Origin: an uncultured Eubacteriales bacterium
GTDB lineage: Bacteria > Bacillota > Clostridia > Lachnospirales > Lachnospiraceae
Assembly: GCA_900557175.1 (NCBI GenBank)
Contig: USSL01000017.1
Location: forward strand, 1-16,501
Length of the DNA stretch: 16,501 bases
Direction: 5' to 3'
The notes beneath the pieces were generated by a model. The model was not told the DNA's origin and made no database searches. It saw only the letters and a list, made by a program, of their open reading frames with translations. The stretch's first letter is position 1, and each line of letters starts with the position of its first letter. This document shows, piece by piece, positions 744 through 13,056 of this stretch. Made by a program: the position numbers and the translations under genes.

Positions 744-1151
744 ATGAAAATTTTGGTCATCAATGCAGGCAGCTCTTCCCTGAAGTATCAGCTGCTGGAC
801 CCCGATACCAAGGAAGTTCTGGCCAAGGGCCTGTGCGAGCGCATCGGCCTGGACGGCCACATCAAGCACACCCCCACCGGTAAGGACGTCTACGACGCCG
901 ACCGTTACATGCCCGACCACGAGGCCGCCATCAAGCTGGTCATGGAGGTCCTGACCCACAACTACTACGGCGTCATCAAGGACATGTCCGAGATCGACGC
1001 GGTGGGCCACCGTGTGGTCCACGGCGGTGAGGAGTTCACCCATTCCGTGATCATCGACAAGAACGTGATGAAGGGCATCCGGGAGTGCATCCCTCTGGCC
1101 CCCCTCCACAACCCCGCCAACATCACCGGCATCAACGCCTGCACCGCCGTG
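744..1151 (+). CDS. ackA: Acetate kinase, N-terminal 133-136 codons only (cut at the junction)
   Basis: Acetate kinase interconverts acetate plus ATP and acetyl phosphate. ATG at 744 is preferred to the in-frame GTG at 732 because TAAGGAG (726-732) lies at normal spacing from it and the protein then begins MKILVINAGSSSLKYQLLD, the canonical ASKHA-fold start (Asn7, Ser10 and Ser12, Lys14). GHRVVHGGEEF places the substrate-binding Arg at residue 90, and PLHNPAN places the conserved His at 122. Homology ends around GINAC/TAV (residues 129-136). The frame stays open to 1334, but those codons are the antisense of a NagA gene, so Asp148-, His180-, Arg241- and Glu384-equivalent residues are absent. 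A full-length protein is about 400 residues. The truncation is most likely an assembly effect and not a biological mutation. Confidence 0.93.
1131..1151. other. Chimeric junction between two genomes (ackA / nagA)
   Basis: These 21 bases are compatible with both genes. On the plus strand they read INACTAV, as acetate kinase expects after HNPANITG. On the minus strand they read HGGAGVD, as NagA expects after FIDIHT. The two reading frames are in register. To the left the DNA is GC-rich. To the right it becomes AT-richer within a few codons. Both genes lose their remaining two-thirds or more at this point. Confidence 0.85.
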
Positions 1152-1328
1152 TGTATGAATATCAATAAATCCGGGAACGGCTGTATTGCCCTTCATATCA
1201 TAAACAAGGCCGTCGTCATGATTTCTCGGATTAACGATGGCTGTAATAAGACCGTCTTCAATACAGACGTCCATCGCCTTTATTTCATCATGATGCAGCA
1301 CCTGTCCGTTGACAAGCCAAGTTTTCAT
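1131..1328 (-). CDS. nagA: N-acetylglucosamine-6-phosphate deacetylase (NagA-like), N-terminal 66 codons only
   Basis: The amidohydrolase N-terminus is clear: a short beta-sandwich segment (MKTWLVNGQV...), then PGFIDIHTHGGAGVD at residues 52-66 with the metal-binding HxH at His58 and His60. Members of this family remove acetate from N-acetyl-hexosamine 6-phosphates to give the free amino-sugar phosphate. The ATG at 1328 follows GGAGG (1336-1340), which overlaps the end of the NagB-like gene; its stop codon is 2 bases upstream of this ATG, so the two are probably translationally coupled. After residue 66 the frame continues to 684, but that part is the antisense of ackA and is not NagA. About 300 residues are missing at the junction. 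The assignment as a sugar-phosphate deacetylase is firm, but the exact sugar is not, given the unusual neighbours. Confidence 0.85.
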
Positions 1329-1330
1329 AC

Positions 1331-2152
1331 TTAATCCTCCAATGCTGCCACGTATTCCGTGATTTTAAGGTTAATGTCCTTATGGGATGTCAGAAGTGAT
1401 ACCGGAAAATCCGATGTCGCCTCACCGTAAGCTGTTCTTCTTACAACGGCTCTGTGCCAGTTTCTGAAACAGCCGAGACGTATTTTTCTTGCATGGGAAA
1501 TTTCATAAATACCAATCGTGACACAATATTTCGGCATATCTTCAAGAGCACCGTTAAAGTCACCGATGGCATTGGCCGTCCGTGTCTCTTTTGAAATTTC
1601 AAGCACTCTCGTCTTCTGCGCTAAAAATTCCTCATTTGTCTTTGCCGCGTCAGCTTCATTGAAAGCGACATGACCGTTAATGCCGATACCGCCAAAGCAA
1701 ATATCCACGCCGCCAAGCTTCTCAATAAGCTCTGGAATATAGTCAATATTGTTTGGATCAGGGAAAACACGCTGCTCTTTCGGCATCACAAGCTCCGGTT
1801 TTACTTTTGTATACACCGTTCTTTCCATAAAGCCCCTAAAGCTTAACGGATGATCCACCGGCACCCACTGCTTATCGTCTGTAAGATACTCGTCCATATT
1901 AATAAACCAGACATTTTTAAGGCTGATATTTTCCTCGTTAACCATATCAACAAAATACGGATACTGGCCGACAGGACCGACAGGACATATAAATACTGTC
2001 GTTTTATTTTCAGCATTATTTTGTTTAATTGTCTCGGCCATCTCAACTGCCATGGACTAAAAAACTTCTGCATTGTCCTTCATCACAATGACAGACAGCT
2101 TCGGATTTTTCAAAAGTTCTTCTTTTGTATACTGATAATATTCGTGACTCAT
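1331..2152 (-). CDS. NagB-like glucosamine-6-phosphate deaminase/isomerase family protein, interrupted by in-frame TAG
   Basis: The gene begins at ATG 2152 (MSHEYYQYTKEELLKNPKLS...), with TGGAG six bases upstream. Codon 32 (2057-2059) is TAG, between ...NAEVF and SMAVEMAETIKQ; a single C-to-T change from CAG would explain it. Reading resumes in frame from ATG 2053, which has no ribosome-binding site, and stays open to 1331. The body is a NagB/6-phosphogluconolactonase fold: NMDEYL holds the Asp72 equivalent (residue 87), and GGIGINGHVAFNE gives His161 and Glu166, the equivalents of His143 and Glu148. The catalytic Asp141 position is Asn159, and the usual phosphate loop PTGGTP is replaced by PVGPVGQYP. 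Related Lachnospiraceae proteins appear, from memory, to share these changes, so the family may act on a different amino-sugar phosphate. It may be a pseudogene, a strain variant, or expressed by reinitiation at 2053. Confidence 0.8.
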
Positions 2153-2167
2153 AGGAAACTCCATTCC

Positions 2168-2181
2168 GCCGCATCAGCGGC
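2168..2181 (-). other. Short stem-loop upstream of the NagB-like gene
   Basis: The inverted repeat GCCGC-N4-GCGGC lies between the SIS gene stop and the start of the NagB-like gene, about 15 bases before ATG 2152. It has no U-tract, so it is not a classical terminator. It may tune translation or mRNA stability. Confidence 0.35.
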
Positions 2182-2190
2182 ATAAATTTG

Positions 2191-3249
2191 TTATTTTAAA
2201 ACAATCGCCTGAGACAGGTTTCTCGGTGTGTCAGCGTCCAGATCTTTTGCAAGTGCTACATAATAGCCGACAAACTGTCCGATGTAACCGATAATCGGCG
2301 CATAGGCAGGCTCATCCCAGCCCTCTGAAAGGTTGTATGTATAATCGGCACAATCTTTAAAGTCATCGCCAAGCTCAGCACCCAAAACAACCGTAACTGC
2401 CCCGTAGCCTTTCATCTGTGTCATTAATGACACATCCTCCGCTCTCGATTTGCGGTGGCTTAAGCATATAATTAATGTTTTATCATCCACAAGGCTCATC
2501 GGTCCGTGGCGATATTCAAGGTCATAGTAGCCTTCGGAATTTGTAAGTCCCATTTCTTTCATCTTATTCATACATTCATTGGCAATACCATAGTAAATGC
2601 CCTGACCGAGTGTGATGAAAAGATTGACCTCCGGATGTTCTGTCATTATCTGTTTTGCAAGAGTATCCTGCTCTTTTAAAACGCGCTCTGAAACTTCCTT
2701 ATAATTTTTAAGCGCTTCAATTTTATCTTTTTTGCCGCCGACATAATAAGCCATAATGACTGCGAGATAAATCATACTTGTAAATGAACGTGTCATAACG
2801 ATACTGTCTTCTGCGGTATCCGGTGACCAGATCATATAATCATTGTACTTTTCACTGTCACGATCGCATGTAATTGCCAGTGTTGTCACATTTTTAAATT
2901 CATGAACTTTATCAATGGCCATGCGCACCTCTGTTGTATAGCTTTTTCTCGTAATCGGAAGAATAAGCACCTCACCGTCCTTAATATAGTTTTCCGGGAA
3001 GAAATAAAGCTCTGAGCACGGAACGCCCTTTGCCGGAATGTCCGTACATGCTGAAAATGCCGCTGCTGCTGCCTGTGCAAGATAAAGTGATGTACCGCAG
3101 CCTGTAAAAATTAATTCCCTGTATGTTTTGCCTGATTTAAAAACTTTATCAAGTTCTGCGTAAATATCCTCTAATGTGTCATTGATCGCCTGAAATGAAT
3201 CCGGCTGGCAGTAAATCTCTGCGTATGTAATTTCTCCGTTCTTTTTCAT
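2191..3249 (-). CDS. SIS-domain sugar-phosphate isomerase/deaminase (GlmS isomerase-domain / AgaS-like)
   Basis: This 352-residue protein has two SIS domains, as in the isomerase half of GlmS and in AgaS and FrlB-type deglycases. Motifs seen: GCGTS (50-54), TRSFT (153-157), EYRHGP (245-250) and the C-terminal PRNLSQAI (342-349). These enzymes bind ketose or aldose phosphates and often isomerise or deaminate amino-sugar phosphates. The usual SRSGxTTE phosphate loop is TRKSYTTE here (100-107), which suggests a changed substrate contact. ATG 3249 is chosen over the upstream in-frame TTG at 3261 because GGAGG sits five bases before it. It lies between the aldolase and the NagB-like gene, which suggests sequential handling of one substrate. 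There is no glutamine amidotransferase domain, so this is not a GlmS synthase. Confidence 0.85.
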   Translation of the reverse strand: MKKNGEITYAEIYCQPDSFQAINDTLEDIYAELDKVFKSGKTYRELIFTGCGTSLYLAQAAAAAFSACTDIPAKGVPCSELYFFPENYIKDGEVLILPITRKSYTTEVRMAIDKVHEFKNVTTLAITCDRDSEKYNDYMIWSPDTAEDSIVMTRSFTSMIYLAVIMAYYVGGKKDKIEALKNYKEVSERVLKEQDTLAKQIMTEHPEVNLFITLGQGIYYGIANECMNKMKEMGLTNSEGYYDLEYRHGPMSLVDDKTLIICLSHRKSRAEDVSLMTQMKGYGAVTVVLGAELGDDFKDCADYTYNLSEGWDEPAYAPIIGYIGQFVGYYVALAKDLDADTPRNLSQAIVLK

Positions 3250-3316
3250 GATAACCTCCAAAAATAATATAAACTTATTTTATGTGCAGACCGCACTTTT
3301 CAAAAATACCGTATTT

Positions 3317-4168
3317 CTATGCCCTTCCCTCAGAACCTGCAAGACGTATAATATTCTTCACATCTTCTGTGAGCGCTTCATTTGCCATCTGGGACAACTT
3401 CCATGAATGTCCCTGATGATCCGTCTTCAGCGCTTCCTCATAGTGCTGTACATATTTATATCTGATTTCCGTACCAAAATTAATTTTTGCCACACCAAGG
3501 CGAATCGCCTGTTTAATAATATCCTCTCTCATTCCCGTACATCCGTGAAGTACAAGCGGTATATCTGTAATTTCACCGGCCGCCTCAAGTACCTCCAGAT
3601 GAATATCCGGCTCACCCTTATAATAGCCGTGGGCATTGCCGATGCCGATAGCCAGTGAATCCGGCTGGCAAAGCTCTAAAAACTTCCGCACATCATCAAT
3701 ACTTGCCACATTTTTGTTTTCCATTTGTGCGCCGCAGTTATCCAGTCTTAAAAGCTCGCCGATTTCTGCCTCCACAGGCACGTCAAAGCAATGGGCTACT
3801 CTGAGCACTTCATTTGTCATAGCCGCGTTTTCCTCAATCGGCTTTGTAGAACCGTCGATCATCAATGACGTAAATCCATTCTTTAATGATTTCATGCAAA
3901 TATCAAAATCATTGCCGTGGTCTAAATGAATTGCAATCGGCACGTCAACCTTATTGGCACACCACTTACATACCTCGACGAACCAGTCGTCCCCTGAATA
4001 TGCTCCCGTTGCAACATAGTGGGCTAAAATCGCCGGTGAGCGCATCTGCTGCGCCGCATTACAAATCGCCCATATAATATCATAATTTCCACCCTGTGTA
4101 TTAATTGCCGGTACTGCATAATGCTCTTTTCTTGCCTTAATGAGCATATCCTTTGTTGTTACAAGCAT
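3317..4168 (-). CDS. Class II (zinc) ketose-bisphosphate aldolase, FBA/TagBP family
   Basis: This 283-residue TIM-barrel aldolase is normal in length for GatY/KbaY/FbaA-type enzymes, which split fructose- or tagatose-1,6-bisphosphate-like ketoses into dihydroxyacetone phosphate and an aldehyde. The catalytic Asp83 and zinc ligand His84 are in HLDHG, Glu135 in EAEIGE, and zinc ligands His180 (GNAHG) and His208 (LHGCTG) are present. KINFGTEIR (228-236) is the phosphate-binding strand. The family motif HGGSG reads HGCTG, and the residue before AHG is Asn where Thr or Ser is usual; both could change specificity. AGGAGG (4177-4182) sits eight bases upstream of the ATG. It is separated from the lipoprotein gene by a 126-bp spacer with a strong hairpin, and from the SIS gene by 67 bp counted from the SIS ATG. 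Which ketose it cleaves cannot be told from sequence. Confidence 0.9.
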   Translation of the reverse strand: MLVTTKDMLIKARKEHYAVPAINTQGGNYDIIWAICNAAQQMRSPAILAHYVATGAYSGDDWFVEVCKWCANKVDVPIAIHLDHGNDFDICMKSLKNGFTSLMIDGSTKPIEENAAMTNEVLRVAHCFDVPVEAEIGELLRLDNCGAQMENKNVASIDDVRKFLELCQPDSLAIGIGNAHGYYKGEPDIHLEVLEAAGEITDIPLVLHGCTGMREDIIKQAIRLGVAKINFGTEIRYKYVQHYEEALKTDHQGHSWKLSQMANEALTEDVKNIIRLAGSEGRA

Positions 4169-4260
4169 TTATTCTTCCTCCTTATTTGCACGCCTCTGCT
4201 ATCATATATCAAAAATCATTCTCTGACGGCTGCCCCCAGCCGCCCCTTTTCTGCAAAGGA

Positions 4261-4282
4261 GGCAGGTGACGAATCACCTGCC
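4261..4282 (-). terminator. Intercistronic stem-loop after the binding-protein gene
   Basis: A perfect nine-base inverted repeat, GGCAGGTGA-CGAA-TCACCTGCC, starts about 12 bases after the lipoprotein stop codon. In the direction of transcription it is followed by TCCTTTGC and not by a run of T, so it is more likely a 3'-end stabilising or partial-termination hairpin. Such hairpins often allow higher expression of a binding protein than of downstream enzymes. A smaller GGCTG-N4-CAGCC hairpin follows at 4228-4241. Confidence 0.55.
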
Positions 4283-4294
4283 CCTGTCATTTCT

Positions 4295-5356
4295 TTATTG
4301 AACTGCTGCCTCTAAAACATCGAATAAGATGTAATCTTCAAGTGGTGTCTTTTCGCAGTCACCGTTGGCAACAAAAGCATCCTGCTGAAGCTGATAGTAA
4401 GCTTTTACATCGTCCATGTTATTTTTAATAAAATCTGATGTTGTCCAGTCTGCTACATCTCTCTGCTCAAGAAGTGTATCTTTCTCAAGCTTTACTTCAT
4501 CTGCAATCCAGCCGGCAACTTCTTCTGCGTGGCTGTCATCTGCACGGTAATCGAAACCTTTGTATAATGCTCTTGCAAATTTCTCAAGTGTTTCTTTGTT
4601 TTCCTCACCATATTTTGGCATACAAATCCAGCTTGAAAGGGATACTGTATCTTCGATAAATGTCTTGTTATCACAAAGCTTCACACCGTTGTCGCCTAAC
4701 TCAGACATAATCTTTGTTGTATTCGGAACCCATGCCGCACATGCGTCAACGCCGCCTGAAAGCATTGCTGTGACAAGGTTTGTTGCTTTCATATCAACCG
4801 GTGTGATATCGTCCATTGTAAGACCTGCTTTTTCAAGACCTTTCTTTAAAATATCTTCACTGGATGTACCTGATGAATATGCAACCTGTTTGCCCTTTAA
4901 ATCTTCGAGTGTCTCAACACCTTTTTCCTTGTTTCCGATAATTGCATCGCCGTTTGAAACGTGTGCCAGTGCAAAGATGCTTGCCTTGCCGTTGATACAG
5001 AGCTTATGTGCACCCTGTCCGATATAGCCGACATCAACCGCACCGGATTCCATCGCATTGATGATTGTTGGGCCGTCTGAGAACTGAATGAGATTAACCT
5101 CAAGTCCTTCATCCTCAAAATAGCCGAGCTGCTGTGCTGAAATAACACCGTTTAAGCTTGCATAGTCAGGCATATAAGCAACATTCACTGTTGTCAATTC
5201 GCCTGTCGGTGCCTCTGCACTTTCCGTACCTTCTGTCCCCTGTGTACTCTCTGCTGCCGGTTTTGTCTCAGTTTCCTTTGTTTCGCCACCATTACCGCAT
5301 GCTGCTAATGACATTGCCATCACTGTTGCTAAAAGCGCTGCTGTTATCTTTTTCAT
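4295..5356 (-). CDS. ABC transporter substrate-binding lipoprotein, SsuA/TauA/NMT1-THI5-like
   Basis: The 353-residue protein starts with a lipoprotein signal peptide, MKKITAALLATVMAMSLAAC, with lipobox Cys20. A Glu/Thr-rich linker (about 21-55) and a periplasmic-binding fold follow. The fold segment YMPDYASLNGVISAQQLGYF, then a GLEVNLIQFSDG stretch and AMESGAVDVGY are typical of the SsuA/TauA/NrtA group, which captures sulfonates, taurine, nitrate or thiamine precursors. ATG 5356 has AGGAGG upstream. It is the third gene after the permease and ATPase of the same importer. This family is not the usual sugar-binding type, which is notable beside sugar-phosphate enzymes. It hints at an anionic or sulfonated ligand, but the ligand pocket cannot be read from sequence. 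Confidence 0.9.
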   Translation of the reverse strand: MKKITAALLATVMAMSLAACGNGGETKETETKPAAESTQGTEGTESAEAPTGELTTVNVAYMPDYASLNGVISAQQLGYFEDEGLEVNLIQFSDGPTIINAMESGAVDVGYIGQGAHKLCINGKASIFALAHVSNGDAIIGNKEKGVETLEDLKGKQVAYSSGTSSEDILKKGLEKAGLTMDDITPVDMKATNLVTAMLSGGVDACAAWVPNTTKIMSELGDNGVKLCDNKTFIEDTVSLSSWICMPKYGEENKETLEKFARALYKGFDYRADDSHAEEVAGWIADEVKLEKDTLLEQRDVADWTTSDFIKNNMDDVKAYYQLQQDAFVANGDCEKTPLEDYILFDVLEAAVQ

Positions 5357-5394
5357 ACCTTTTTCCTCCTTAAATATGTGGGTATAAATTTTAA

Positions 5395-5427
5395 TTGATA
5401 CACGGATTTTTCCGTACTTCGTATCAA
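5395..5427 (-). other. Nested stem-loop between the ATPase and lipoprotein genes
   Basis: TTGATAC (5395-5401) pairs with GTATCAA (5421-5427), and inside it ACGGA (5402-5406) pairs with TCCGT (5411-5415). It begins two bases after the ATPase stop codon. No clear U-tract follows. It probably marks the transition to a more highly expressed binding-protein cistron. Confidence 0.5.
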
Positions 5428-5428
5428 A

Positions 5429-6220
5429 TTACTTTCTAACCTCCAAATACTCCTGATAAACCTGTCCCCAAATTTCATTCTTAAGCTCTAAGAATCGCTG
5501 GCTCATCTTCGTTTCCTGGTTTCTTGGATATGGGATATCAATATCAACAATATCCTTAATACGTCCCGGTCTTGCGCTCATGATAATAACCTTCTGTGCA
5601 AGAATAATTGCTTCCTCAACGTCATGTGTAATAAAGAAACATGTCTTCTGCTCTTTTTCCCATGTTTCAAGAAGCTCTGACTGAAGCTGTGTTCTTGTCT
5701 GGGCATCCAGCGCACCGAAAGGCTCATCCATAAGAAGCACTTCCGGATTGACTGCATAAGCTCTTGCAATCGCAACTCTCTGTTTCATACCGCCGGATAA
5801 TTCCTTCGGATAGTGATTCACAAAATCTTCAAGCTGAACCATCTTTATGTACTTCATTGCAATTGCTTCTGCTTCTTCTTTGCTCTTGCCCTGAAGTCTC
5901 GGTCCGAACATAACGTTCTTTAAAACAGTCATCCACGGGAAAAGCGCATACTGCTGGAAAACAACACCACGCTCGACGCCGGTTCCCTCAATCTTCTTAT
6001 TATCAATATAAACTGCACCCTCTGTCGGCATCTCAAGTCCTGCGATAATATTTAATAAGGTTGATTTACCGCAGCCTGACGGTCCGACAACACAAATAAA
6101 TTCATTTTCCTTGATTTCCAAATCAACACCGTTTAAGGCAACGACATCACCGTTTCTTGTATTATAAACTTTTTTGACGCCGTCAATCTTAAGCTTTGTC
6201 AATCTCTCTTTTCCTGCCAT
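5429..6220 (-). CDS. ABC transporter ATP-binding protein, SsuB/TauB/NrtD type
   Basis: This is a complete 263-residue nucleotide-binding subunit. Walker A GPSGCGKST is at 46-54, the Q-loop at Gln89-Gln90, the signature LSGGMKQR at 141-148, Walker B VLLMDEP at 161-167 followed by the D-loop GALD, and the switch histidine in ITHDVEEA at His199. The YALFPWMTV stretch after the Q-loop is characteristic of the sulfonate/nitrate/taurine subgroup. It energises import through the adjacent permease. The ATG at 6220 lies inside the permease gene (22-base overlap) with GAGG upstream, so translation is coupled. The C-terminus has no extra regulatory domain. Confidence 0.93.
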   Translation of the reverse strand: MAGKERLTKLKIDGVKKVYNTRNGDVVALNGVDLEIKENEFICVVGPSGCGKSTLLNIIAGLEMPTEGAVYIDNKKIEGTGVERGVVFQQYALFPWMTVLKNVMFGPRLQGKSKEEAEAIAMKYIKMVQLEDFVNHYPKELSGGMKQRVAIARAYAVNPEVLLMDEPFGALDAQTRTQLQSELLETWEKEQKTCFFITHDVEEAIILAQKVIIMSARPGRIKDIVDIDIPYPRNQETKMSQRFLELKNEIWGQVYQEYLEVRK

Positions 6221-7002
6221 CCCGTCAACCTCTTTTCCATAAATTTAATAAACTTCTCCATCACAAGGCCAATGACACCGATAATGATGATATAAAACAG
6301 CATGGCCGCCGTATCGTAGTTGTTTGATAATGCACTGATTCTCATACCGAGTCCGGCGATCGCACCTGTCGATTCGGCAGCAATCAATGTTGTCAGTGCA
6401 ACAGAAACACCAAGACGGATTGCCGTTAAAATAAATGGTGTCGTTGCCGGGAAAATAACCTTTACGAAAATATCCTTATCCTTTGCACCGAGAACCTTCG
6501 CCGCTTTGACAAGTGTATTGTCAATATTTCTGACACCCTGATAAATTGTTACAGTCATAATAAGGAAAGTCGCGATCCAGATAACGATAATCTGTGGCTT
6601 TCTTCCGACACCGGCTGTAATAACAACTAACGGAACATAAGCGAGCGGTGGGATGTTACGGATAAACTGAATCCACGGCTCTAAAATACCTCTCACAGGC
6701 TGATACCATGCCATCAAAAAGGCAATTGGCACAGCAGTTACAAAACCAAGCGCAAATCCGGCAAGTACCGAAATCATTGAACTTACAAAGTCTTCAACAA
6801 GCGCCCCGTTTTCAATCATCTTCTGCATTGACTCAATCATTGCCGGAATAAACGGAAAGCTTCGCGCTGTTTTTGGATTAATGGAAAGAATGTACCATAA
6901 AAGGATAGCTACTGCCAGAGAAATAAGCACCCATGCCCAGCCTGGAATACTTGCGATAACGCCTTTCTTCTTTGCAGCCTTTTTTGTACCATTTGATTCC
7001 AT
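6199..7002 (-). CDS. ABC transporter permease, SsuC/TauC type
   Basis: This 267-residue membrane protein has about six hydrophobic segments (roughly 22-40, 73-98, 117-132, 136-155, 189-210 and 231-252) and a Lys-rich cytoplasmic N-terminus. The EAA-like coupling loop AAKVLGAKDKDIFVKVIFP (167-185) contacts the ATPase. AESTGAIAGLGMRI near 209-222 is typical of the BPD_transp_1 members that serve sulfonate, taurine or nitrate importers. It presumably works as a homodimer, since only one permease gene is present. It is the first gene of the operon, about 60 bases downstream of the inferred transcription start. The upstream region carries a promoter and a perfect LacI-type palindrome. Confidence 0.92.
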   Translation of the reverse strand: MESNGTKKAAKKKGVIASIPGWAWVLISLAVAILLWYILSINPKTARSFPFIPAMIESMQKMIENGALVEDFVSSMISVLAGFALGFVTAVPIAFLMAWYQPVRGILEPWIQFIRNIPPLAYVPLVVITAGVGRKPQIIVIWIATFLIMTVTIYQGVRNIDNTLVKAAKVLGAKDKDIFVKVIFPATTPFILTAIRLGVSVALTTLIAAESTGAIAGLGMRISALSNNYDTAAMLFYIIIIGVIGLVMEKFIKFMEKRLTGWQEKRD

Positions 7003-7067
7003 TTCTCAAACCCCCTTCTTTTTCGCATTGTGCGTTGCGTATATTTTGTTTTTAACTCATTGTATTA

Positions 7068-7097
7068 AGTATAACATATTGCACACACAAAAGGCAA
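7068..7097 (-). promoter_or_regulatory. Promoter of the ABC-aldolase-SIS-nagBA operon
   Basis: On the minus strand TTGCCT (7097-7092) and TATACT (7073-7068) are 18 bases apart. The -35 is imperfect. The palindrome at 7106-7119 ends eight bases upstream of it, a geometry that suits activation. Confidence 0.55.
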
Positions 7098-7105
7098 ACT
7101 TTCTG

Positions 7106-7119
7106 TGCAAACGTTTGCA
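7106..7119. promoter_or_regulatory. LacI-family operator (perfect 14-bp palindrome)
   Basis: TGCAAACGTTTGCA is a perfect palindrome with a central CG, the form bound by LacI/PurR/CcpA proteins. Its centre is 39.5 bp from the near edge of the -10. An overlapping eight-base inverted repeat (TGTGCAAA 7104-7111, TTTGCACA 7123-7130) may form a second weaker half-site. Copies of the ten-base core occur at 10800 and 13157. Confidence 0.75.
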
Positions 7120-7133
7120 TGTTTTGCACAATC

Positions 7134-8621
7134 TTATAAATCGTGATGTACCATATGTGTATAATCTTCCTCGCTGCCGTATTTATCATCGGCCATCATT
7201 AAATGAACGGCGCTTAATTTGAATGTCTGCGGCAGTGCAAGAATATTCGGATTCGGTCCGACATATTTCTTCTTTGCATCTTCAAGTGCTTCCTCAATCG
7301 TTGCTCTTGTCTTAAGTCCCATACCTCTTGCATAGCCCGGCTGTTCTGCACCACAGATATAAATTGCAGATGTATTCATCTCTGCAATATGGCCGCAGCT
7401 CATCATCGAGAAGCCGTGGAACGGATGGAAAGCATTGCAGTAACGGTATTTGCGGATATATTCCTCATTTGTCGCAAAATATTCGCCGTAGCGGTTCATA
7501 TCTCTTAATGTGTTCATGCCGTCATGCTGGAACATTTCATAACATTCTCTTAAATACGGCCACAATTCGTCATGGAAATAACCGTTGCATGTGGATGCAC
7601 ATATAATAACGCAGTTATCACTCATAATTCTCTTATGACGGATCACCTGAGCTGAGAGCGCCTGCATCAGCATAATCGGATTTGTACCCATGCCGTCGCC
7701 GTAATGGAAAAACTGAGGCATACCAAAAACCATCACATCGTATTTCTTCGTTGCCCACGGCACATAAGTTCTCTTGTCCGCTGTCCGCCATGACTTCGGC
7801 TGCATCATTGCCGCATAACCGCTGTTAATCTCAATCTGTCTGGATTTTGTATCAAGCACTGCATCACAGCAGAAAAACTTCTTGCCCATACATTTTTCCA
7901 TATGCATACCGATCTCATCAAATTTTGTACGCATTAAAGACTTGCCGCTGACAGGCACAAAGTCTTTTCTGTGCATAACTTCAGGAACGTGATGAGAAGC
8001 AATTGAACGCCAGTGTGTGATACCTGTCGCACAATGCTTATAGCCGCCTGAATAACCGCCGTAAGGATTGCCCTGTGTATGTCCGATCAAAATAGCCACA
8101 TCACTGTCATACACATATTTGTTCATTAATACAGGATCGCCTCTGTCTGTCGTTCCGAGATCTACAAGATGGTCATAGTCCTCGCTGTCGTGATTGATAA
8201 TCTGATGGCTGTACCAAAATTCATTAAATAATTCCTCGCCTAATACGTTGCGGATTTCCTGCTCTGTATTCTTTCTGTGAAGACCGTTGGAACAAATGAG
8301 CAAAATATCCTTTTTCTCAACGCCTGCCGCATATAACTCTTTTAAAATAAGCTTAATCGAAATCTTTCTGTGAGATGTCGGCTGCTCGCCGCCCTTGACT
8401 CTGTCCGGGAATACAATTGTCACTTTTGAGCCTTTGTGTGCCAATTCTGACAACGGCTCCATGCCGATCGGATTTCTGATAGACTCCAGTGTTTTCGCTT
8501 CCAGCTCCTCCTCAGGAATACATGGCGGATCCGGCACTGTCACTCCCGGAATAAACACATCTGTTGTATCCGGTAAATTTGCGCTGACGGTTCCCTGTCC
8601 ATATTCAAAATCCAGTTTCAT
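7134..8621 (-). CDS. LarA-family (lactate racemase-like) nickel-pincer racemase/epimerase
   Basis: This 495-residue protein belongs to the LarA superfamily (DUF2088), whose members racemise or epimerise 2-hydroxy acids by hydride transfer on a nickel-pincer nucleotide cofactor. The expected residues can be seen: His115 in NGLHRKN, His181 in LIGHTQG, the cofactor-tethering lysine as Lys195 in YSGGYKHCATG, and a nickel-ligand histidine as His210 or His211 in IASHHVPE. It is about 70 residues longer than lactate racemase (about 425), so lactate is not assured; sugar acids or other hydroxy acids are possible. GGAGG sits upstream of the ATG at 8621. It is the third gene of the pfk-tpi-larA unit. 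The cofactor-making genes larB, larC and larE are not in the window and would have to be elsewhere. Confidence 0.88.
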   Translation of the reverse strand: MKLDFEYGQGTVSANLPDTTDVFIPGVTVPDPPCIPEEELEAKTLESIRNPIGMEPLSELAHKGSKVTIVFPDRVKGGEQPTSHRKISIKLILKELYAAGVEKKDILLICSNGLHRKNTEQEIRNVLGEELFNEFWYSHQIINHDSEDYDHLVDLGTTDRGDPVLMNKYVYDSDVAILIGHTQGNPYGGYSGGYKHCATGITHWRSIASHHVPEVMHRKDFVPVSGKSLMRTKFDEIGMHMEKCMGKKFFCCDAVLDTKSRQIEINSGYAAMMQPKSWRTADKRTYVPWATKKYDVMVFGMPQFFHYGDGMGTNPIMLMQALSAQVIRHKRIMSDNCVIICASTCNGYFHDELWPYLRECYEMFQHDGMNTLRDMNRYGEYFATNEEYIRKYRYCNAFHPFHGFSMMSCGHIAEMNTSAIYICGAEQPGYARGMGLKTRATIEEALEDAKKKYVGPNPNILALPQTFKLSAVHLMMADDKYGSEEDYTHMVHHDL

Positions 8622-8664
8622 AACTTTTACCTCCGATTCTTTTTTGTTTCATGTATGATGAGAT

Positions 8665-8691
8665 GTGCCGCACTTTATGTTCTGCGGTCAC
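8665..8691 (-). other. Intercistronic stem-loop after the TPI-like gene
   Basis: GTGCCGCA and TGCGGTCAC form an eight-base stem with one bulged T and a ten-base loop. It directly abuts the stop codon of the TPI-like gene at 8692 and precedes the larA-like ribosome-binding site. No U-tract follows, so partial termination or transcript protection is more likely than full termination. Confidence 0.4.
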
Positions 8692-9537
8692 TTATGCTCT
8701 GCAGTTATCCATATAAATTTTTATAATTTCCAAATATTCTTCCGGATAAAAACCAATGTCACCCGAAAATCTTGTCAGTGCAATGAGTCCGCCGTCAATT
8801 TCAGGAATAGATGCCAGCATTTTTGCATTATCCGACTTAAGGCCGCCGCCATAGACAACACTCATGCCGCCGGTCACTTCTTTGACAAACTTTGCAATCT
8901 TTTCAATGTAATCTCTGTCCGGCGGTGTCTTTCCCGGCCCGATGGCCCATACCGGCTCATATGCAATGATGACCTGTGACTTATCAACACCATCAAGTCC
9001 CGTCAGCAGCTGTTCGCGAAGAACATCCTGCCATCTGTCCTGTTCTTCGGCTGTCTCGCCGATGCAGTAAAGCACGGACATTCCCTGCCCGACAGCTTCT
9101 TTAATTTCCTTATTCAGAAGGCGGTTGACTGCTGATGTGTCTGCACAGCCTGCCTCTGCCATAATGCCGAGCTTATCACGTCTTTCCTCACAGTGTCCGA
9201 TAATTGTCGTCTCACAGCCTAAAGCCTTTGCGGCACTTGCCGGACGATTTGTCGTAAAAGCGCCGAAGTTTCCGCCGACTGCCGTATTTTCTCTGAAAAC
9301 ACTCTGGCAGCCAACCTTTACAGGGCTGTCCTCACATTTGGCATCTGCGGCACCAATCAGGTGTGCCTCCGGAAAATACATAAGAAAATCAACTTCATTT
9401 TTATCATAGCTTTTAAGCGCTTCCTGTGTCTGCGACACAATATAGCCGCCCCACTGGCTTATATCTGCAATACTGTTGACGCCGCCGTAAACTTTCGGCA
9501 CATCAAATCTTTTCAAATTCAGGCATATGTGCTTCAT
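8692..9537 (-). CDS. Triose-phosphate isomerase paralogue, divergent
   Basis: This is a 281-residue TIM barrel of the TPI family, about 30 residues longer than housekeeping TPI. The catalytic apparatus is recognisable: Asn7 and Lys9 in LNLKRFD (canonical NWKMN), His115 in GHCEERR and the general base Glu194 in AYEPVWAIGPGKTPP, with loop 6 intact. The phosphate-gripping end differs: the usual YGGSV reads YGGGLKSDN (229-237), and the usual DGALVGGASL reads DGGLIALTRFSGDIGFYPEE. This suggests a related but altered substrate, as with the TPI paralogues of tetrose and erythritol pathways. The ATG overlaps the PFK stop by four bases (ATGA), so the two are translationally coupled. A housekeeping tpiA is presumably elsewhere in the genome. 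Confidence 0.85.
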   Translation of the reverse strand: MKHICLNLKRFDVPKVYGGVNSIADISQWGGYIVSQTQEALKSYDKNEVDFLMYFPEAHLIGAADAKCEDSPVKVGCQSVFRENTAVGGNFGAFTTNRPASAAKALGCETTIIGHCEERRDKLGIMAEAGCADTSAVNRLLNKEIKEAVGQGMSVLYCIGETAEEQDRWQDVLREQLLTGLDGVDKSQVIIAYEPVWAIGPGKTPPDRDYIEKIAKFVKEVTGGMSVVYGGGLKSDNAKMLASIPEIDGGLIALTRFSGDIGFYPEEYLEIIKIYMDNCRA

Positions 9538-10721
9538 AACTTTTTCTCCCTTTCATACTTTTCCAGTCTTGTAAACTCCGGCAGATCACCGCCGATCAGC
9601 GGTTTTGCCCACTGAACAAATTCATCAGTCACATCATTGCCGCGGGCATTAATATAGCTTTCCGGAATTTCTTTTTCATACATCATCACTTCTTCAATCG
9701 GTACTCTGAAAGGTTCGATATGATAACTGCCATCCTCGCTGTCTGTCCGCTTAAAACCAATCATAATACCGCTGTCCCCGTCAAGCGCCGCCTTCAGTGC
9801 TTCCCGTCCGGCCATCACCGCCTCATCCCTGTCTGTTGGTGACTGCCATGCAATAGAAGCCCTGCCGCAAATACCCGGCTTTTCATTTCTCGCCTTAATG
9901 CCAAGCTTCTGAATAACAAGATTGGCAAGATGAGCGCCGACATCGCCGTAATAAATAGCTCTCTCTGTTTTAAAAACAGGCGCCACGATCGGCTTTCCGT
10001 CTTTATCTTTAAGACCTTCGCTTGCCACAACGACAACACCGCCAAGCTCATCGTAAAGCTTCTTGACATCTTCAAGAAATTCTTCTTCATTGAAAGGACG
10101 CTCCGGCAAATAAATCAGATGCGGTGCATCGCCCTTTTCCTTTCTCGCAAGCGCCGATGCCGCTGTAATCCAGCCTGCATTCCTGCCCATCGCCTCAATA
10201 ACACAAACATGAATCGGCATCGCCTTCACATCCTCGCCGACTTCATGGGTTGTCGCTGCAATATAGCGTGCCGCACTTCCGTACCCCGGCGTATGGTCTG
10301 TCACTGCAATATCGTTGTCAATTGTCTTTGGAATACCGACAACGCAAATTCCAGCATCCCTGCACGCCTCATGAATCTTTCCGCATGTGTCCATCGTTCC
10401 GTTGCCGCCGTTTAAAAGTACATAGCGGATATTGTACTTTTTAAATATATCCGGCATCTTCTTATAATCATCTTCCCACAAAGCATAGCGTGAAGAACCG
10501 ATGGCTGTTGCCGGCGTCTGTAAAAGAAGCTCTAACTCCTCATCAGGCACAGTGAGTAAATCCAGAAAATCTTCTTTGAAAATCGCTCCCGTACCGCCCA
10601 TCGCACCATAAACCTTATGGACTTTTTTACTTTCTTTAGCTTCCTTAATGACACCGTAAAGTGACGCATTAATGACCGGCGTCGGGCCGCCGCCGTGGAC
10701 AACTAAAACATTTCCTTCCAC
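9534..10721 (-). CDS. Phosphofructokinase family (PfkA-type) sugar-phosphate kinase
   Basis: This 395-residue protein is the first gene of the pfk-tpi-larA unit. The N-terminal LVVHGGGPTPVINASL is the nucleotide-binding GGxxP motif. GGNGTMDT (105-112) corresponds to GGDGS, with Asn in place of the magnesium-binding Asp103; Gly in the next position points to ATP, where PPi-enzymes have Asp. GIPKTIDND (129-137) holds the catalytic Asp135 with the Lys seen in the PPi-type and mixed clades. MGRNAGW and the TDHTPGYGSAARYIA segment place it in the long (about 400-residue) clade. GTG 10721 is chosen over ATG 10736 because AGGAGG lies six bases before it. It may phosphorylate a ketose 6-phosphate other than fructose, to feed the aldolase. 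Confidence 0.87.
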   Translation of the reverse strand: MEGNVLVVHGGGPTPVINASLYGVIKEAKESKKVHKVYGAMGGTGAIFKEDFLDLLTVPDEELELLLQTPATAIGSSRYALWEDDYKKMPDIFKKYNIRYVLLNGGNGTMDTCGKIHEACRDAGICVVGIPKTIDNDIAVTDHTPGYGSAARYIAATTHEVGEDVKAMPIHVCVIEAMGRNAGWITAASALARKEKGDAPHLIYLPERPFNEEEFLEDVKKLYDELGGVVVVASEGLKDKDGKPIVAPVFKTERAIYYGDVGAHLANLVIQKLGIKARNEKPGICGRASIAWQSPTDRDEAVMAGREALKAALDGDSGIMIGFKRTDSEDGSYHIEPFRVPIEEVMMYEKEIPESYINARGNDVTDEFVQWAKPLIGGDLPEFTRLEKYEREKKL

Positions 10722-10759
10722 AATACCCCTCCTCATTTATATATTTTGTTCTTTTTTCC

Positions 10760-10797: not shown

Positions 10798-10811
10798 CAC
10801 AAACGTTTGCA
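10798..10811. promoter_or_regulatory. LacI-family operator between pfk and the regulator gene
   Basis: CACAAACGTTTGCA matches 12 of 14 positions of the perfect copy at 7106. The core CAAACGTTTG is at 10800-10809. Its centre lies 39.5 bp from the -10 of the pfk promoter and 41.5 bp from the -10 of the divergent regulator promoter, so one site could serve both. Confidence 0.7.
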
Positions 10812-10821
10812 TGAAATAAAA

Positions 10822-10851: not shown

Positions 10852-10908
10852 GGAAGAAGATAAAAGAACGGATCACATGACAGATTGCATAAAACAGGAG
10901 GAAATTGT

Positions 10909-11943
10909 ATGACTTTAAAAGAGATTGCCGCTGAAGCCGGCGTTTCGGTTTCAACGGTTTCAAGAGTAATTAATAAAAAAGGAACCTCTGCGGCAAGCAA
11001 AGAGGTTCAGGATAAAATATGGGAAATTGTAAGAAGGACAGGTTATTCGCCAAACACCGCCGCACGGAATCTGAAAACCGGCCGCGCCGACGAGCTGGAA
11101 AGCAAACGTTCCCATTCTATTGCTTGTATTTTTGCAAGAACGGACGAACCAATGAAAGATACCTTCTTTTCAACACTTGCCAGAGGTATTGAACAGGAGG
11201 CCTTTAAGCATAATTATATTGTCAAATATATTATTTCATCACTGGATATCAGTAATCCGGCAACCTTCCGTCTGATTACAGAAAATCAGGTTGACGGCGC
11301 AGCCGTCCTCGGACGCTGTGACAAACAGATGCTGAGTTTTCTGAAAAAATATTTCAACTATGTCGTCTACAGCGGTCTCAACAATATCAACGCCAAGTAT
11401 GACCAGATTATATGCGACGGCCATATGGCAGCTGTCAGCGCTATGGAAGAACTGTTTAAGCTTGGACATTCCAAAATCGCTTATATCGGCGAAACACATT
11501 TTGAAAACCGTTATGAAGGCTACTGCAGCGCCCTGACTTCAAAACACCTCCCCATTAAGCGTGACTATATTATAAACACACCGTTAAATACCGAAGGCGG
11601 CTACAACGGCGCCATCAAGCTTTTGAAAAATGCACCCCATGATTTTACGGCAATTTTCTGTCCAAATGACACAACGGCAATCGGCGCCATCAAAGCTTTA
11701 CAGGAAAACAATATGCGTATTCCAAAAGATGTTTCACTCATCAGCATTGATGATATCGAGCTTGCCCAGTACATCAGCCCGATGCTGACAACGATTCACA
11801 TTCCGATTGAAGAAATGGGACAAATGGCAGCAAAGATTTTAATTGACCGCATTGAAGGCGGACATACACTGCCATTAAAGCTTTCTCTGCCGTTTCATTT
11901 GGCAACACGGGAAAGCTGTGCCCAGCCGCGGCGGAATTATTAA
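10909..11943 (+). CDS. LacI/GalR-family transcriptional regulator
   Basis: The protein is 344 residues from ATG 10909, which follows AGGAGG; the in-frame TTG at 10885 would include the ribosome-binding site in the coding region and is rejected. The N-terminal helix-turn-helix MTLKEIAAEAGVSVSTVSRV and the hinge helix NTAARNLKTG are classic. The hinge leucine is the residue that intercalates at a central CG step, in line with the CAAACGTTTG operators nearby. A periplasmic-binding-like effector domain follows (IACIFARTDEP..., a GHSKIAYIGE motif, a CPNDTTAIGAIKAL motif, a SIDDIELAQYISPMLTTI motif). It is divergent from pfk and shares its operator. The likely effector is the imported substrate or a phosphorylated intermediate. 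Operator positions upstream of the -35 suggest it can activate. Confidence 0.93.
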   Translation: MTLKEIAAEAGVSVSTVSRVINKKGTSAASKEVQDKIWEIVRRTGYSPNTAARNLKTGRADELESKRSHSIACIFARTDEPMKDTFFSTLARGIEQEAFKHNYIVKYIISSLDISNPATFRLITENQVDGAAVLGRCDKQMLSFLKKYFNYVVYSGLNNINAKYDQIICDGHMAAVSAMEELFKLGHSKIAYIGETHFENRYEGYCSALTSKHLPIKRDYIINTPLNTEGGYNGAIKLLKNAPHDFTAIFCPNDTTAIGAIKALQENNMRIPKDVSLISIDDIELAQYISPMLTTIHIPIEEMGQMAAKILIDRIEGGHTLPLKLSLPFHLATRESCAQPRRNY

Positions 11944-11973
11944 GGCATAAAGCAGACAAGTCCCTATGGCATA

Positions 11974-12014
11974 AAAATTGCCAGTCTGCGCTTAAAGCAC
12001 AAGCTGGCAATTTT
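11974..12014. terminator. Bidirectional terminator between the regulator and the P-loop gene
   Basis: AAAATTGCCAG (11974-11984) and CTGGCAATTTT (12004-12014) form an 11-base stem with a 19-base loop. On the plus strand the stem ends in TTTTCTTT, on the minus strand in TTTTTATG, so it can stop transcription of both converging genes. The stop codon of the minus-strand gene lies inside the loop, and the distal stem arm encodes its last residues. Confidence 0.7.
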
Positions 12015-13056
12015 CTTTCACATTAAATTTTTCAAAATAAGCATTTTCTTTCGGAATCCACTCACCGATAAACCGTGACAGCATATAAGCGCCGTTGCGT
12101 TCCAAAATTCTTTCTTTTTGCGTCTCTGCATCCAAATCAAGAAATATTCTCAAGTCATAACTATCCCTGAAATACGGATGACAGCTGTAAGAGCCTTCAA
12201 TAATAATCAATTTTCTGCTGCATACACGCACGCTGTCCGTCAGCCGCTGCTGTCCGCAGTCATAGCGCTGATACTCAAACACTTCCCGCGCCTGTGTAAT
12301 CGGTGCAAGCACCTCCTCCTTAAATCGCTCATAATCAATATTTCCGCCGACCTCTAAAAGACGTTCCTCCGTCTTTTGCTCAGGACGCAGAAAAAAATCA
12401 TCCATATGAATCACGCTGCACTGATAGACGTTTGCAAGCAGTCTTGACAAATAGCTTTTTCCGCTGCCGCATCTGCCGTCGATCGCCGCAATGACTGTTT
12501 TTTTATCTGAATATCTTATCTTCCGGTCAATCATTTCAAATACCGGCATATAACGGATATAATCTTCGCTGATCACTCTGTAGGCCGGATGATAGTATTT
12601 TTTATAGACAGCCGAATGATGCACCGCCGGATATCCCTGCTGACGGTATGGGCCAAGATACGCATCAAGCGCCTCTTTGGAAAACGGCACTGCCCCCTGA
12701 GCACAAAGCTCACGCAGCTTCTCAAGCTTTTCTTCAAAACAGGCTGTATCACGATTGACCTGAGCTGCTGTATTCACAAAAAATCGGTTGACTGTTTCCA
12801 GACTCACATGGGCATCAATTCCCGGAAGATGAAGCCGGACAAGTCCATTGCCTATTTTATCGTATAATACGGGAAGCTTTGTTTCCGGCAGCCCTTCATA
12901 CTCTTTATATAACCGGCTTAAGCTGTCCGATGGATTTGCAATCATATGCCCGCCGCCGAACTCGCTTTGAAAAACAAGCTTTACGAGATCACTGATCTGC
13001 ATCTGTGGATATTTTTTTGTATGTTCTATAATAATGTCTTTGAATTTTTCTTTCAT
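11992..13056 (-). CDS. Uridine-kinase-like P-loop kinase with N-terminal extension
   Basis: The protein is 354 residues long. The C-terminal half is a phosphoribulokinase/uridine kinase P-loop domain: Walker A DGRCGSGKS (193-201), HMDDFF with Asp219/Asp220, the GNIDYERF segment (238-245), IIEGSYSCHP (285-293) and an arginine-containing lid region (RILERNG). The first 185 residues match no domain I can name; they contain an FGGGHMI motif (33-39) and a His/Tyr-rich segment (AVHHSAVYKKYYHPAY, 144-159). ABC import does not phosphorylate its cargo, so a kinase is needed, and this gene has its own strong promoter with the regulon palindrome beside it. A role as the substrate kinase is inference; a nucleoside kinase role unrelated to the locus remains possible. 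Confidence 0.8.
   Translation of the reverse strand: MKEKFKDIIIEHTKKYPQMQISDLVKLVFQSEFGGGHMIANPSDSLSRLYKEYEGLPETKLPVLYDKIGNGLVRLHLPGIDAHVSLETVNRFFVNTAAQVNRDTACFEEKLEKLRELCAQGAVPFSKEALDAYLGPYRQQGYPAVHHSAVYKKYYHPAYRVISEDYIRYMPVFEMIDRKIRYSDKKTVIAAIDGRCGSGKSYLSRLLANVYQCSVIHMDDFFLRPEQKTEERLLEVGGNIDYERFKEEVLAPITQAREVFEYQRYDCGQQRLTDSVRVCSRKLIIIEGSYSCHPYFRDSYDLRIFLDLDAETQKERILERNGAYMLSRFIGEWIPKENAYFEKFNVKENCQLVL

Follow-up and report, generated by a model that had tools for sequence, protein, structure and literature searches.

The gene row, its regulator and its damaged end

The window, by which we mean the whole 16,501-nucleotide stretch of DNA analysed here, carries a single minus-strand gene row running from 10736 to 1131, with intergenic gaps of −22 to 131 bp, a divergent gene for a LacI-family regulator and three predicted operators (Table 1). 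This arrangement bears out the description, in an earlier note on this DNA, of a LacI-linked catabolic gene set, and the motifs listed there were all found in the proteins to which they had been assigned (GGGLK in the TPI-like, TRKSYTTE in the SIS, HGCTG in the aldolase and GGNGT in the PFK-like protein). The enzyme families proposed there hold by profile for the PFK, TIM, Lar_N, SsuABC-like, aldolase and SIS proteins, whereas the NagB and NagA matches lie below the NCBIfam cut-offs. The closest structures to PFK', which by profile (NF010675) belongs to the PPi-dependent phosphofructokinase family, are PDB 3k2q/3hno, and the PDB matches of the SsuA-like protein are nitrate/sulfonate/taurine binders. 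Neither a tRNA nor an RNA family at Rfam gathering scores was found in the window.

Table 1. Genes and predicted operators of the window.
Feature	Position	Strand	Basis
Acetate kinase (ackA), N-terminal part, outside the pathway	732..1164	+	PF00871, residues 6-144
NagA', N-terminal ~66 residues only	1131..1328	-	TIGR00221 match over residues 11-69 only
NagB', glucosamine-6-P-deaminase-like, in-frame TAG	1331..2152	-	TIGR00502 99.8 bits, below cut-off
SIS isomerase/deaminase-like, GlmD/AgaS relative	2191..3261	-	PF01380; GlmD NF041128 141 bits, below cut-off
Class II ketose-bisphosphate aldolase-like, adjoins SIS gene	3317..4168	-	PF01116
Lipoprotein substrate-binding protein, SsuA-like	4295..5356	-	PF09084 NMT1; TIGR01728 118.9 bits, below cut-off
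ABC ATPase, SsuB/TauB-like	5429..6220	-	PF00005; NCBIfam matches below cut-off
ABC permease, SsuC/TauC-like	6199..7002	-	PF00528; NCBIfam matches below cut-off
Predicted operator CAAACGTTTG, upstream of importer genes	7108..7117		Sequence match
LarA', LarA-like, single-histidine subfamily, 495 aa	7134..8621	-	Lar_N profile, PDB matches
TPI', triose-phosphate-isomerase-like, 281 aa	8692..9537	-	TIM profile
PFK', PPi-type phosphofructokinase-like, 400 aa	9534..10736	-	NF010675 417.6 bits vs cut-off 273
Predicted operator CAAACGTTTG, between LacI gene and PFK'	10800..10809		Sequence match
LacI-family regulator, divergent from row	10885..11943	+	PF00356, PF13377
P-loop kinase-like protein, 354 aa	11992..13056	-	PRK06547/uridine-kinase-like matches below cut-off
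Predicted operator CAAACGTTTG, ~100 bp upstream of P-loop kinase	13157..13166		Sequence match

The distal end of the row is damaged. NagB' is interrupted by an in-frame TAG at 2059-2057, and its listed ORF begins late, at 2053. The NagA' frame meets the plus-strand N-terminal part of ackA head-on at about 1121-1164, leaving ~66 residues, compared with a median of 385 aa in relatives, so that of the NagA announced earlier only the N-terminal match stands. The window copy may be a remnant, left either by decay through pseudogenisation or as an artefact of a chimeric contig; we rate this as a real possibility, slightly short of even, and as compatible with the explanation that we prefer for the relatives. 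The stop codon and the truncation of two opposite-strand genes at a single point fit such a remnant; the remaining eight genes, however, are open and match those of relatives, and a short stretch at the join, compatible with both genes when read by eye, points to a chimera formed during assembly or library preparation and away from a loss that took place in the cell. The NagA'/ackA join is probably such a chimera, lying outside the pathway, and a remnant in the window would leave the pathway in relatives untouched.

Co-occurrence and regulation in relatives

The gene set was compared across the best 80 of 491 loci found with the TPI-like protein, which are related to each other. Counts were taken from tblastn because ORF calls in high-GC loci are often shadowed by the opposite strand. 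Among these 80 loci, LarA-like matches occur in 72, PFK-like in 64, aldolase in 60, NagA in 46 and NagB in 43; all three importer genes (>38% identity) are present in 36, and LarA' directly follows TPI' among the called genes in 71. The window-type aldolase has relatives at 59-72% in L022, L050, L051, L062 and L071 and at 79% in L107, and the SIS protein at 67% in L050, 52% in L062 and 65% in L107. PGI-like and MFS_2 genes are seen in some loci. The neighbourhood comparison suggested by the earlier note thus turned out in its favour: the genes travel together and are not scattered, which supports a conserved, LacI-linked set of predicted catabolic function. Isolates with the set include Catenibacillus scindens DSM 106146 and Roseburia inulinivorans DSM 16841.

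In 16 relative loci the LacI gene is transcribed away from a PFK', ManA-like, permease or NagB' gene, and in 12 of these a CAAACGTTTG-type site lies inside the divergent gap. The predicted operator also precedes a permease gene in L003, L010, L040, L045 and L052, TauE in L051, TauE-NagA and PGI in genome G011, and aldolase in G003 and G022. In G003, G011 and G022, it stands ahead of a peptide/nickel-type ABC importer and LarB/C/E, an arrangement limited to these three among the 14 genomes searched; two of the three are Hungatella. The pattern AAACGTTTGNNTAA gave 32 matches in these 14 genomes (29 places, three palindromic and matched twice) and the reversed pattern 15, so that up to half of the matches may be due to chance. 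Among 12 stretches examined around AAACGTTTGNNTAA sites, L103, L104 and L105 contain no pathway gene. One stretch (L106) repeats the main locus L035, and another (L096) has a FecCD importer nearby.

The P-loop kinase, counted in the set by the earlier note, is tied to it by operator and synteny and by no other link, which makes it a probable regulon member. In L003 and L036 the predicted operator precedes an ECF-type gene and, after it, the kinase gene; in L098 it lies between the SIS and kinase genes. The only PDB match of the protein is a weak one to phosphoribulokinase (E 0.004), and its relative in L036 matched no Pfam family.

Loss of phosphate-binding residues in the pathway enzymes

In NagB', the catalytic D72, H143 and E148 are kept in 41/41 orthologs, whereas the residues that we take to bind phosphate (T41-G-G-T44, Arg172 and Lys208) are not: G43/T44 are deleted and K208 is replaced by His in all 41, and R172 is absent, the aligned residue being Gly or Asp depending on the alignment. 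Arg227 of NagA, presumably also phosphate-binding, is His in 44 of 45 NagA' orthologs; the window NagA' stops short of this site. TPI' has the catalytic His95 and Glu167 and the TIM fold, with NLK at residues 7-9 (the Asn9-x-Lys11 region is out of register in the alignment) and invariant Lys234 and Arg256, but its phosphate clamp, which we assume to be formed by YGGS and the GG of GGASL, carries S212->G and G234->L in every one of the best 80 of 491 loci. PFK' orthologs keep D127 and Lys124 (65/65 each), with D103->N in 65/65 and R162->H in 62/65, and have Leu, Ile or Val at position 249 in 65/65; positions 162 and 249, Lys and Tyr in 3k2q, are presumably fructose-6-P ligands. R243 and R252, two PFK residues that hold the 6-phosphate, are kept in 65/65.

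Housekeeping and pathway copies were compared in six genomes as a control. T41, G42, R172 and K208 are kept in 5/5 above-cut-off NagB (T44 in four, Ser in one), R227 in 8/8 other full-length NagA, and the phosphate clamp in 6/6 canonical TPI, a count that leaves out a third TPI-like variant, L128. The pathway copies (4 NagB', 6 TPI' and 4 NagA') lack these residues. Judged by their sequences, the pathway enzymes have thus lost phosphate-binding residues retained by housekeeping copies in the same genomes. The previously claimed alteration of substrate-facing residues therefore holds for the phosphate sites of NagB, NagA, TPI and PFK. The change that had been singled out in NagB, Asn for Asp141, was rejected as a marker because the canonical NagB of the same genomes (5/5 above cut-off) also carry Asn, as does the NagB of PDB 2bkv, which we take to be that of B. 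subtilis.

The order NagA-NagB-PFK-aldolase-TPI and the retained catalytic residues match GlcNAc-6-phosphate catabolism by NagA and NagB, in which deacetylase likewise precedes deaminase, and could reflect an ordinary GlcNAc/GalNAc route in which drifted paralogues act on 6-phosphates. We regard this as very improbable, and reject a plain GlcNAc pathway, given that the phosphate-site changes are nearly invariant across dozens of orthologs and that canonical enzymes coexist with the pathway set (NagB and R227-type NagA in 5/6 genomes each, TPI in 6/6). Moreover, the window importer is of the ABC rather than the PTS type, PTS or MFS_2 matches occur in just 10 of the best 80 of 491 loci, no sugar kinase was recognised in an unsystematic inspection of the loci, and LarA' and TauE would be left unexplained. 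In view of the scarcity of PTS/MFS_2 matches and the lack of a recognised sugar kinase, one phosphorylation, by the PFK-like enzyme, appears more likely than the two envisaged in the earlier note.

Nickel enzyme, sulfur context and the proposed route

LarA' matches PDB 9q2u (E 8e-270) and 9q3j (E 3e-264), placing it by sequence as a close member of the single-histidine LarA subfamily, which includes LarA of Blautia wexlerae and Streptococcus plurextorum (PDB 9q2u/9q3k, 9q3j; PMC12611868) and has the same catalytic His, His-to-Asn change and NPN residues. In the window numbering, which equals the LarA Sp numbering of PMC12611868, D73, K76, H115, N185, K195, H211, H306 and Y307 are the same in all 71 aligned sequences, of which the window's is one: the catalytic His115 is kept, the second His is replaced by Asn185, and the NPN-binding Lys195, His211, Asp73 and Lys76 and active-site His306 and Tyr307 are present. 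According to the available part of that source, the subfamily structures were published in 2025 without substrate or pathway, its glycolysis-type neighbours are PFK, TPI, aldolase and GlcN6P-isomerase, and those LarA homologs that have been characterised use 2-hydroxy acids as substrates (PMC12611868). Compared with the same part, the LacI operator, TauE, the SsuABC importer, the altered phosphate sites and the placement of NPN genes inside the regulon of some relatives are new here.

The strongest clues are the exporter and nickel-cofactor genes, which in some relatives lie behind the same predicted operator; TauE/SafE and LarB/C/E are absent from the window itself. TauE/TSUP-type exporter genes occur in 18/32 loci against 0.48 expected, although such chance figures overstate independence, the best 80 of 491 loci including kin. 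In that sample all 33 TauE/TSUP matches are on the TPI strand, and TSUP or chromate-transporter-type genes are found in 36 loci, with none in the DNA examined at the other 44; L006, L047 and L092 exceed the PF01925 cut-off of 32.6 with 99.2, 93.9 and 99.6 bits. Sulfatase-type matches occur in six of the same 80 loci and in none of the other 74, Pfam confirming those in L005, L007 and L062. In L062 and L107 the aldolase and SIS genes of the window type are preceded by a sulfatase gene, anaerobic sulfatase maturases exceed the cut-off in L091 (by TauE-NagA) and L101 (~7 kb from the aldolase), and in L086-L089 TauE is at most ~5 kb from a sulfatase.

Taken together, we estimate a probability of about 0.5 that the row is an operon, or most of one, of a LacI regulon for an EMP-like route that breaks down N-acetylhexosamines bearing a sulfur oxyanion at C6, the most likely substrates being two 6-O-sulfates found in mucin and glycosaminoglycans, GlcNAc-6S and GalNAc-6S. 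The presence of the sulfur group at C6 is quite probable. The SsuABC-like importer would take up the charged sugar without phosphorylation, NagA' would remove the acetyl group, and NagB' (gluco) or the SIS protein (perhaps galacto) would deaminate and isomerise the product to a 6-sulfo-ketose, a stage to which PGI-like, ManA-like and FucI-like isomerases of relatives may bring non-amino hexoses. PFK' would then phosphorylate C1 with pyrophosphate as donor, and the class II aldolase would yield DHAP and 3-sulfo-glyceraldehyde; the odds on this order of reactions are about even. Finally, TPI' might form an enediolate from which beta-elimination of the sulfur group gives methylglyoxal, LarA' with the nickel-pincer cofactor might convert methylglyoxal to lactate by hydride transfer from C1 to C2; the sulfur anion would leave via TauE/SafE. 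The elimination and methylglyoxal steps are speculative, and we hold them to be doubtful.

Several observations sit uneasily with this sulfated-sugar route: the rarity of sulfatase-type matches, the loci (and window) without a TSUP/chromate-transporter-type gene, the retention of R243 and R252 in PFK', and a fused PTS IIC-IID gene in four loci, hard to square with a C6 that is blocked. Neither LarB nor LarC is present in 17/79 genomes, which weakens the case for an essential role of NPN, and LarB/C/E behind the predicted operator is limited to three of 14 genomes. In addition, sulfonates are the best-known cargo of SsuABC-type importers. The earlier suggestion of a sulfonated or otherwise anionic N-acetyl sugar survives in its anionic, sulfur-bearing part; because sulfatases or maturases lie near some loci, a sulfate ester is somewhat favoured and a sulfonate appears less probable.

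With a sulfonate at C6 (sulfoquinovose or a 6-sulfo amino sugar), the same architecture would produce sulfolactaldehyde on aldol cleavage, TPI' and LarA' would desulfonate or rearrange it, and TauE would export sulfite or a C3 sulfonate. The kinship of the importer to nitrate/sulfonate/taurine binders, the PGI-like and MFS_2 genes at some loci and the description of TauE/SafE as exporting sulfite, sulfoacetate and sulfolactate (PMC10413263) agree with this alternative, which we nevertheless consider rather unlikely: the sulfatase and maturase neighbours indicate esters, and YihQ, YihS and YihT of sulfo-EMP gave no tblastn match over half length in the best 80 of 491 loci. NagA and NagB are frequent, yet we know of no abundant natural 6-sulfonated N-acetylhexosamine. 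Transporter matches to YihO/YihP in five loci (25-30%) were discarded as too generic to count as evidence of sulfo-EMP. Less likely still is another C6 anion, such as the carboxylate of aminouronic acids, or a differently built acidic sugar. LarA' would then have a genuine 2-hydroxy acid as its substrate, which on chemical grounds is what a 6-carboxy ketose would release when cleaved by the aldolase. This would be in keeping with the activity of characterised LarA homologs (PMC12611868), but the TauE/SafE enrichment, its operator position in two genomes and the sulfatase and maturase neighbours would remain without explanation.

The sulfated-sugar route recalls sulfoglycolysis, known as sulfo-EMP, -ED, -TAL and -TK types (PMC12890257), in that the place of phosphate is taken by a sulfur anion at C6, the carbon chain is split and a sulfur product leaves the cell; it differs in its PPi-PFK, TPI and LarA relatives, its proposed amino-sugar substrates and, probably, the sulfate ester. 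L-Erythrulose-1-phosphate isomerase, a TPI paralogue, was compared with TPI' by fold only. GlcNAc-6S is also the substrate of a route in Bifidobacterium breve, where a sulfatase reportedly removes the sulfate first, whereas the 74 of the best 80 of 491 loci without a sulfatase match would carry sulfate to the triose. Among the matches listed in literature searches on the pathway chemistry, the proposed intermediates, LarA and B. breve, no title or abstract opening described the pathway, in agreement with the earlier note, which had called it a candidate undescribed pathway; as coverage was limited to published articles, with few subscription papers, this absence is weak evidence.

In its boldest form, which we rate as improbable, the reading is that gut Clostridia possess a complete analogue of glycolysis that runs on host amino sugars, with their 6-sulfate in place of phosphate, and that this sulfate is kept to the triose and shed without a sulfatase, through TPI-like beta-elimination to methylglyoxal, which single-histidine LarA turns into lactate by a 1,2-hydride shift on one face; such a one-face shift would explain why a single histidine suffices in LarA'. 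If true, this would assign a role to a LarA subfamily published without a substrate, show that carbohydrate breakdown employs the nickel-pincer cofactor in a second way and account for the use of sulfated host amino sugars by Lachnospiraceae and Oscillospiraceae, which bears on how mucus is turned over and how sulfur moves through the gut.

Gene complement of the window and its relatives

Pfam and NCBIfam returned the same family names as those given in the earlier note for the genes of the window, which form a single minus-strand row with intergenic gaps of -22 to 131 bp; the scores of the NagB, SIS, LarA, TPI and importer proteins lie under the NCBIfam cut-offs, as expected of side branches. 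Only ~66 residues of NagA are present, in a head-on junction with an N-terminal acetate kinase fragment, and a short stretch at the join is, judged by eye, compatible with both genes, which suggests that the contig is probably chimeric at this point. The NagB-like gene contains an in-frame TAG, through which the aligned relatives read. No pathway link was found for the genes adjoining the set at 13140-16499.

Features of the window
Feature	Position	Strand	Remark
N-terminal parts of acetate kinase and NagA	732-1330	+ and -	both cut, head-on
Gene row	10736..1131	-	PFK-like, TPI-like, LarA-like, three ABC importer genes, class II aldolase, SIS, NagB-like, NagA start
In-frame TAG	2059-2057		in NagB-like gene
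Operator CAAACGTTTG	7108		ahead of importer unit
Operator CAAACGTTTG	10800		ahead of PFK unit
LacI-family gene	10885-11943	+	divergent from row
Operator CAAACGTTTG	13157		ahead of P-loop kinase unit
Adjoining genes	13140-16499		DUF362 protein, acetate/3-oxoacid CoA-transferase A and B subunits, LysR gene

A scan of genome contigs with an alignment of 16 TPI-like proteins located relatives in at least 491 stretches, of which the best 80 loci, from Clostridia mainly of guts and anaerobic digesters, were kept and searched by tblastn with the window proteins and recurring neighbour proteins. Besides TPI-like (the query, 80/80), matches were obtained for LarA-like (72/80), PFK-like (64/80), NagA (46/80), NagB (43/80) and the importer ATPase (47/80), permease (40/80) and binding protein (39/80), with the complete importer trio, each above 38% identity, in 36 loci and at least one of two aldolase types in 60; these counts are lower bounds, since many loci end at contig ends. 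The LarA-like gene is the next called gene after TPI-like in 71 of the 80 loci. The gene set thus travels together, and the scattering that the earlier note had named as evidence against a common pathway was not observed in these loci.

Altered phosphate sites

In E. coli numbering, we take G43/T44, R172 and K208 of NagB, R227 of NagA, S212 and G234 of TPI, and D103 and R162 of PFK to be phosphate holders. The NagB orthologs retain D72, H143 and E148 (41/41), but G43/T44 is deleted and K208 replaced by His in all 41, and R172 is gone. Likewise, the NagA orthologs keep the metal and catalytic residues (45/45) but carry His for R227 (44/45); the TPI-like proteins keep H95 and E167 but show Gly for S212 and Leu for G234 (80/80); and the PFK-like proteins keep D127, R171, E222, R243 and R252 (65/65) but have Asn for D103 (65/65) and His for R162 (62/65). 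Across the pathway enzymes, the aligned sequences indicate that catalytic residues are retained and phosphate holders lost. The PFK-like orthologs are of two types, GGNG (40/65) and GGND (25/65), which may differ in phosphoryl donor.

Six of the relative genomes provided a housekeeping control. NagB proteins above the family cut-off retain T41, G42, R172 and K208 (5/5), with T44 in four and Ser in one; canonical TPIs have an intact clamp (6/6, a count excluding L128, a third TPI variant), and other full-length NagAs have R227 (8/8). In the pathway copies of the control genomes (four NagB, six TPI and four NagA), the phosphate residues are not retained. Weaker NagB homologs are mixed, L114 and L115 being mostly canonical and L116-L118 missing parts of the loop and R172 and retaining K208. 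The Asn at NagB position 141, singled out in the earlier note, proved uninformative because it is present in all five canonical NagBs of the same genomes and in all the weaker ones. The pattern of lost residues says that the group recognised at the usual phosphate position would not be phosphate.

Operator sites, nickel-pincer cofactor genes and sulfur-related neighbours

For the 8-base core of the operator, 0.52 occurrences are expected per shuffled window, and three were reached in 5 of 200 shuffles. The divergent LacI gap holds an operator site in 12 of 16 relative loci, the remaining four having one ahead of PFK or the importer, and the pattern gave 32 matches at 29 places in 14 LacI-bearing genomes versus 15 for a reversed control. 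Off-locus sites precede a peptide/nickel-type ABC importer together with LarB, LarC and LarE in G003, G011 and G022, TauE-NagA and PGI in G011, and an aldolase in G003 and G022; at L051, a site lies ahead of TauE. No pathway genes were seen near the sites of L103-L105. The predicted pathway operator accordingly fronts nickel-pincer cofactor genes in three genomes (two Hungatella and one Clostridium) and the exporter in two. From the family and neighbouring genes of the importer, we infer that its cargo is nickel. At L096, in G011, a LacI operator site precedes a FecCD-type ABC importer, which may serve as a second importer of metals or metallophores.

The nearest solved relatives of the LarA-like protein, whose eight checked active-site residues are invariant in 71/71 sequences, are the LarA proteins of Blautia wexlerae and Streptococcus plurextorum. 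The paper that describes them, PMC12611868, presents a LarA subfamily with a single catalytic histidine, a substrate that is not known and glycolysis-type neighbours, and states that the S. plurextorum protein does not racemise lactate. LarC is absent from 7/32 and 10/47 genomes; LarB is under the cut-off in all 17 of these and in four others of the 47, and LarE in the first seven, those tested. A LarA-like match is nevertheless present at all 17 loci (17/79 genomes), which cuts against the nickel-cofactor reading. Joint loss through incomplete assembly is possible, since LarB, LarC and LarE often adjoin and most of these genomes are metagenome assemblies; against it, the record of L068 is that of a named strain, and the genes are missing from each of the three Mediterraneibacter loci (L003, L010 and L036). 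Cofactor salvage, another cofactor and incomplete assemblies are the options for these genomes.

A TauE/SafE family protein (TSUP, PF01925), a family treated in part of PMC10413263, recurs next to the gene set in relatives. TSUP genes occur in 31 of the 80 loci, and all 33 matches lie on the TPI strand. Among 32 genomes picked from those of the 80 loci, chiefly because their flanks are long, with 1-7 TauE matches each, the excess at pathway loci is large (18/32 observed versus 0.48/32 expected by chance), although the computed probability of ~1e-25 overstates it, the loci being related. Chromate-transporter-type pairs (PF02417) lie near the set in five further loci (L014, L016, L017, L060 and L065), immediately before PFK in the first two, and no TauE was found in these five.

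In eight genomes with no TSUP at the main locus, one selected TauE gene each was inspected. A sulfatase lies within ~5 kb in four (L086-L089), and TauE is followed by NagA (66% identity) in two (L091 and L092); neither was seen next to TauE in L090 and L093. An anaerobic sulfatase maturase above the NCBIfam cut-off immediately precedes TauE-NagA in L091, and L088 carries, besides a maturase fragment, genes for PTS EIIC and a GH1 protein. In L062 and L107 (the latter from the L029 genome), window-type aldolase and SIS are preceded by a sulfatase of the same strand, at a distance of ~1.8 kb in L107. DUF4838-type proteins of ~620 aa (L008, L026, L028, L037, L054, L070 and L074; Pfam-confirmed in L037) lie near NagB or the importer and are candidate glycosidases for the charged sugar.

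A putative route for 6-charged amino sugars

Literature searches found no paper describing this pathway, and a search of the main text of the sulfoglycolysis review PMC12890257 for nickel, phosphofructokinase, triose, racemase, N-acetyl and amino sugar gave no hits. The earlier note was right about an apparently undescribed pathway; the exporter and nickel-cofactor links, which lie in relatives, had escaped it.

In the route judged most likely, a 6-charged N-acetylhexosamine would be taken up, deacetylated and converted by deamination/isomerisation to a 6-sulfo-ketose, which would be phosphorylated at C1 and cleaved by the aldolase to DHAP and 3-sulfo-glyceraldehyde. A fused mannose-type PTS IIC-IID gene, odd for a C6-blocked sugar, lies near the set in L001, L011, L029 and L041, followed in L001 and L041 by a fucose-isomerase-like gene. 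The last steps are conjecture. An enediolate made by a TPI from 3-sulfo-glyceraldehyde would be primed to expel its C3 group, and true TPI slowly eliminates phosphate in this way; we therefore propose that the TPI-like enzyme might eliminate the group from this enediolate to give methylglyoxal, which the LarA-like protein might turn into lactate by a hydride shift, the freed anion leaving via TauE. Such a redox-neutral end fits the unsystematic look at the loci, in which no triose dehydrogenase or reductase was recognised apart from the zinc dehydrogenase of L022 and L071.

The substrate suggested in the earlier note, a sulfonated or otherwise anionic N-acetyl sugar, comes close; we prefer a sulfate ester to a sulfonate, because sulfatase and maturase genes occur nearby in relatives and because GlcNAc and GalNAc with a 6-sulfate are frequent among the sugars of the host.
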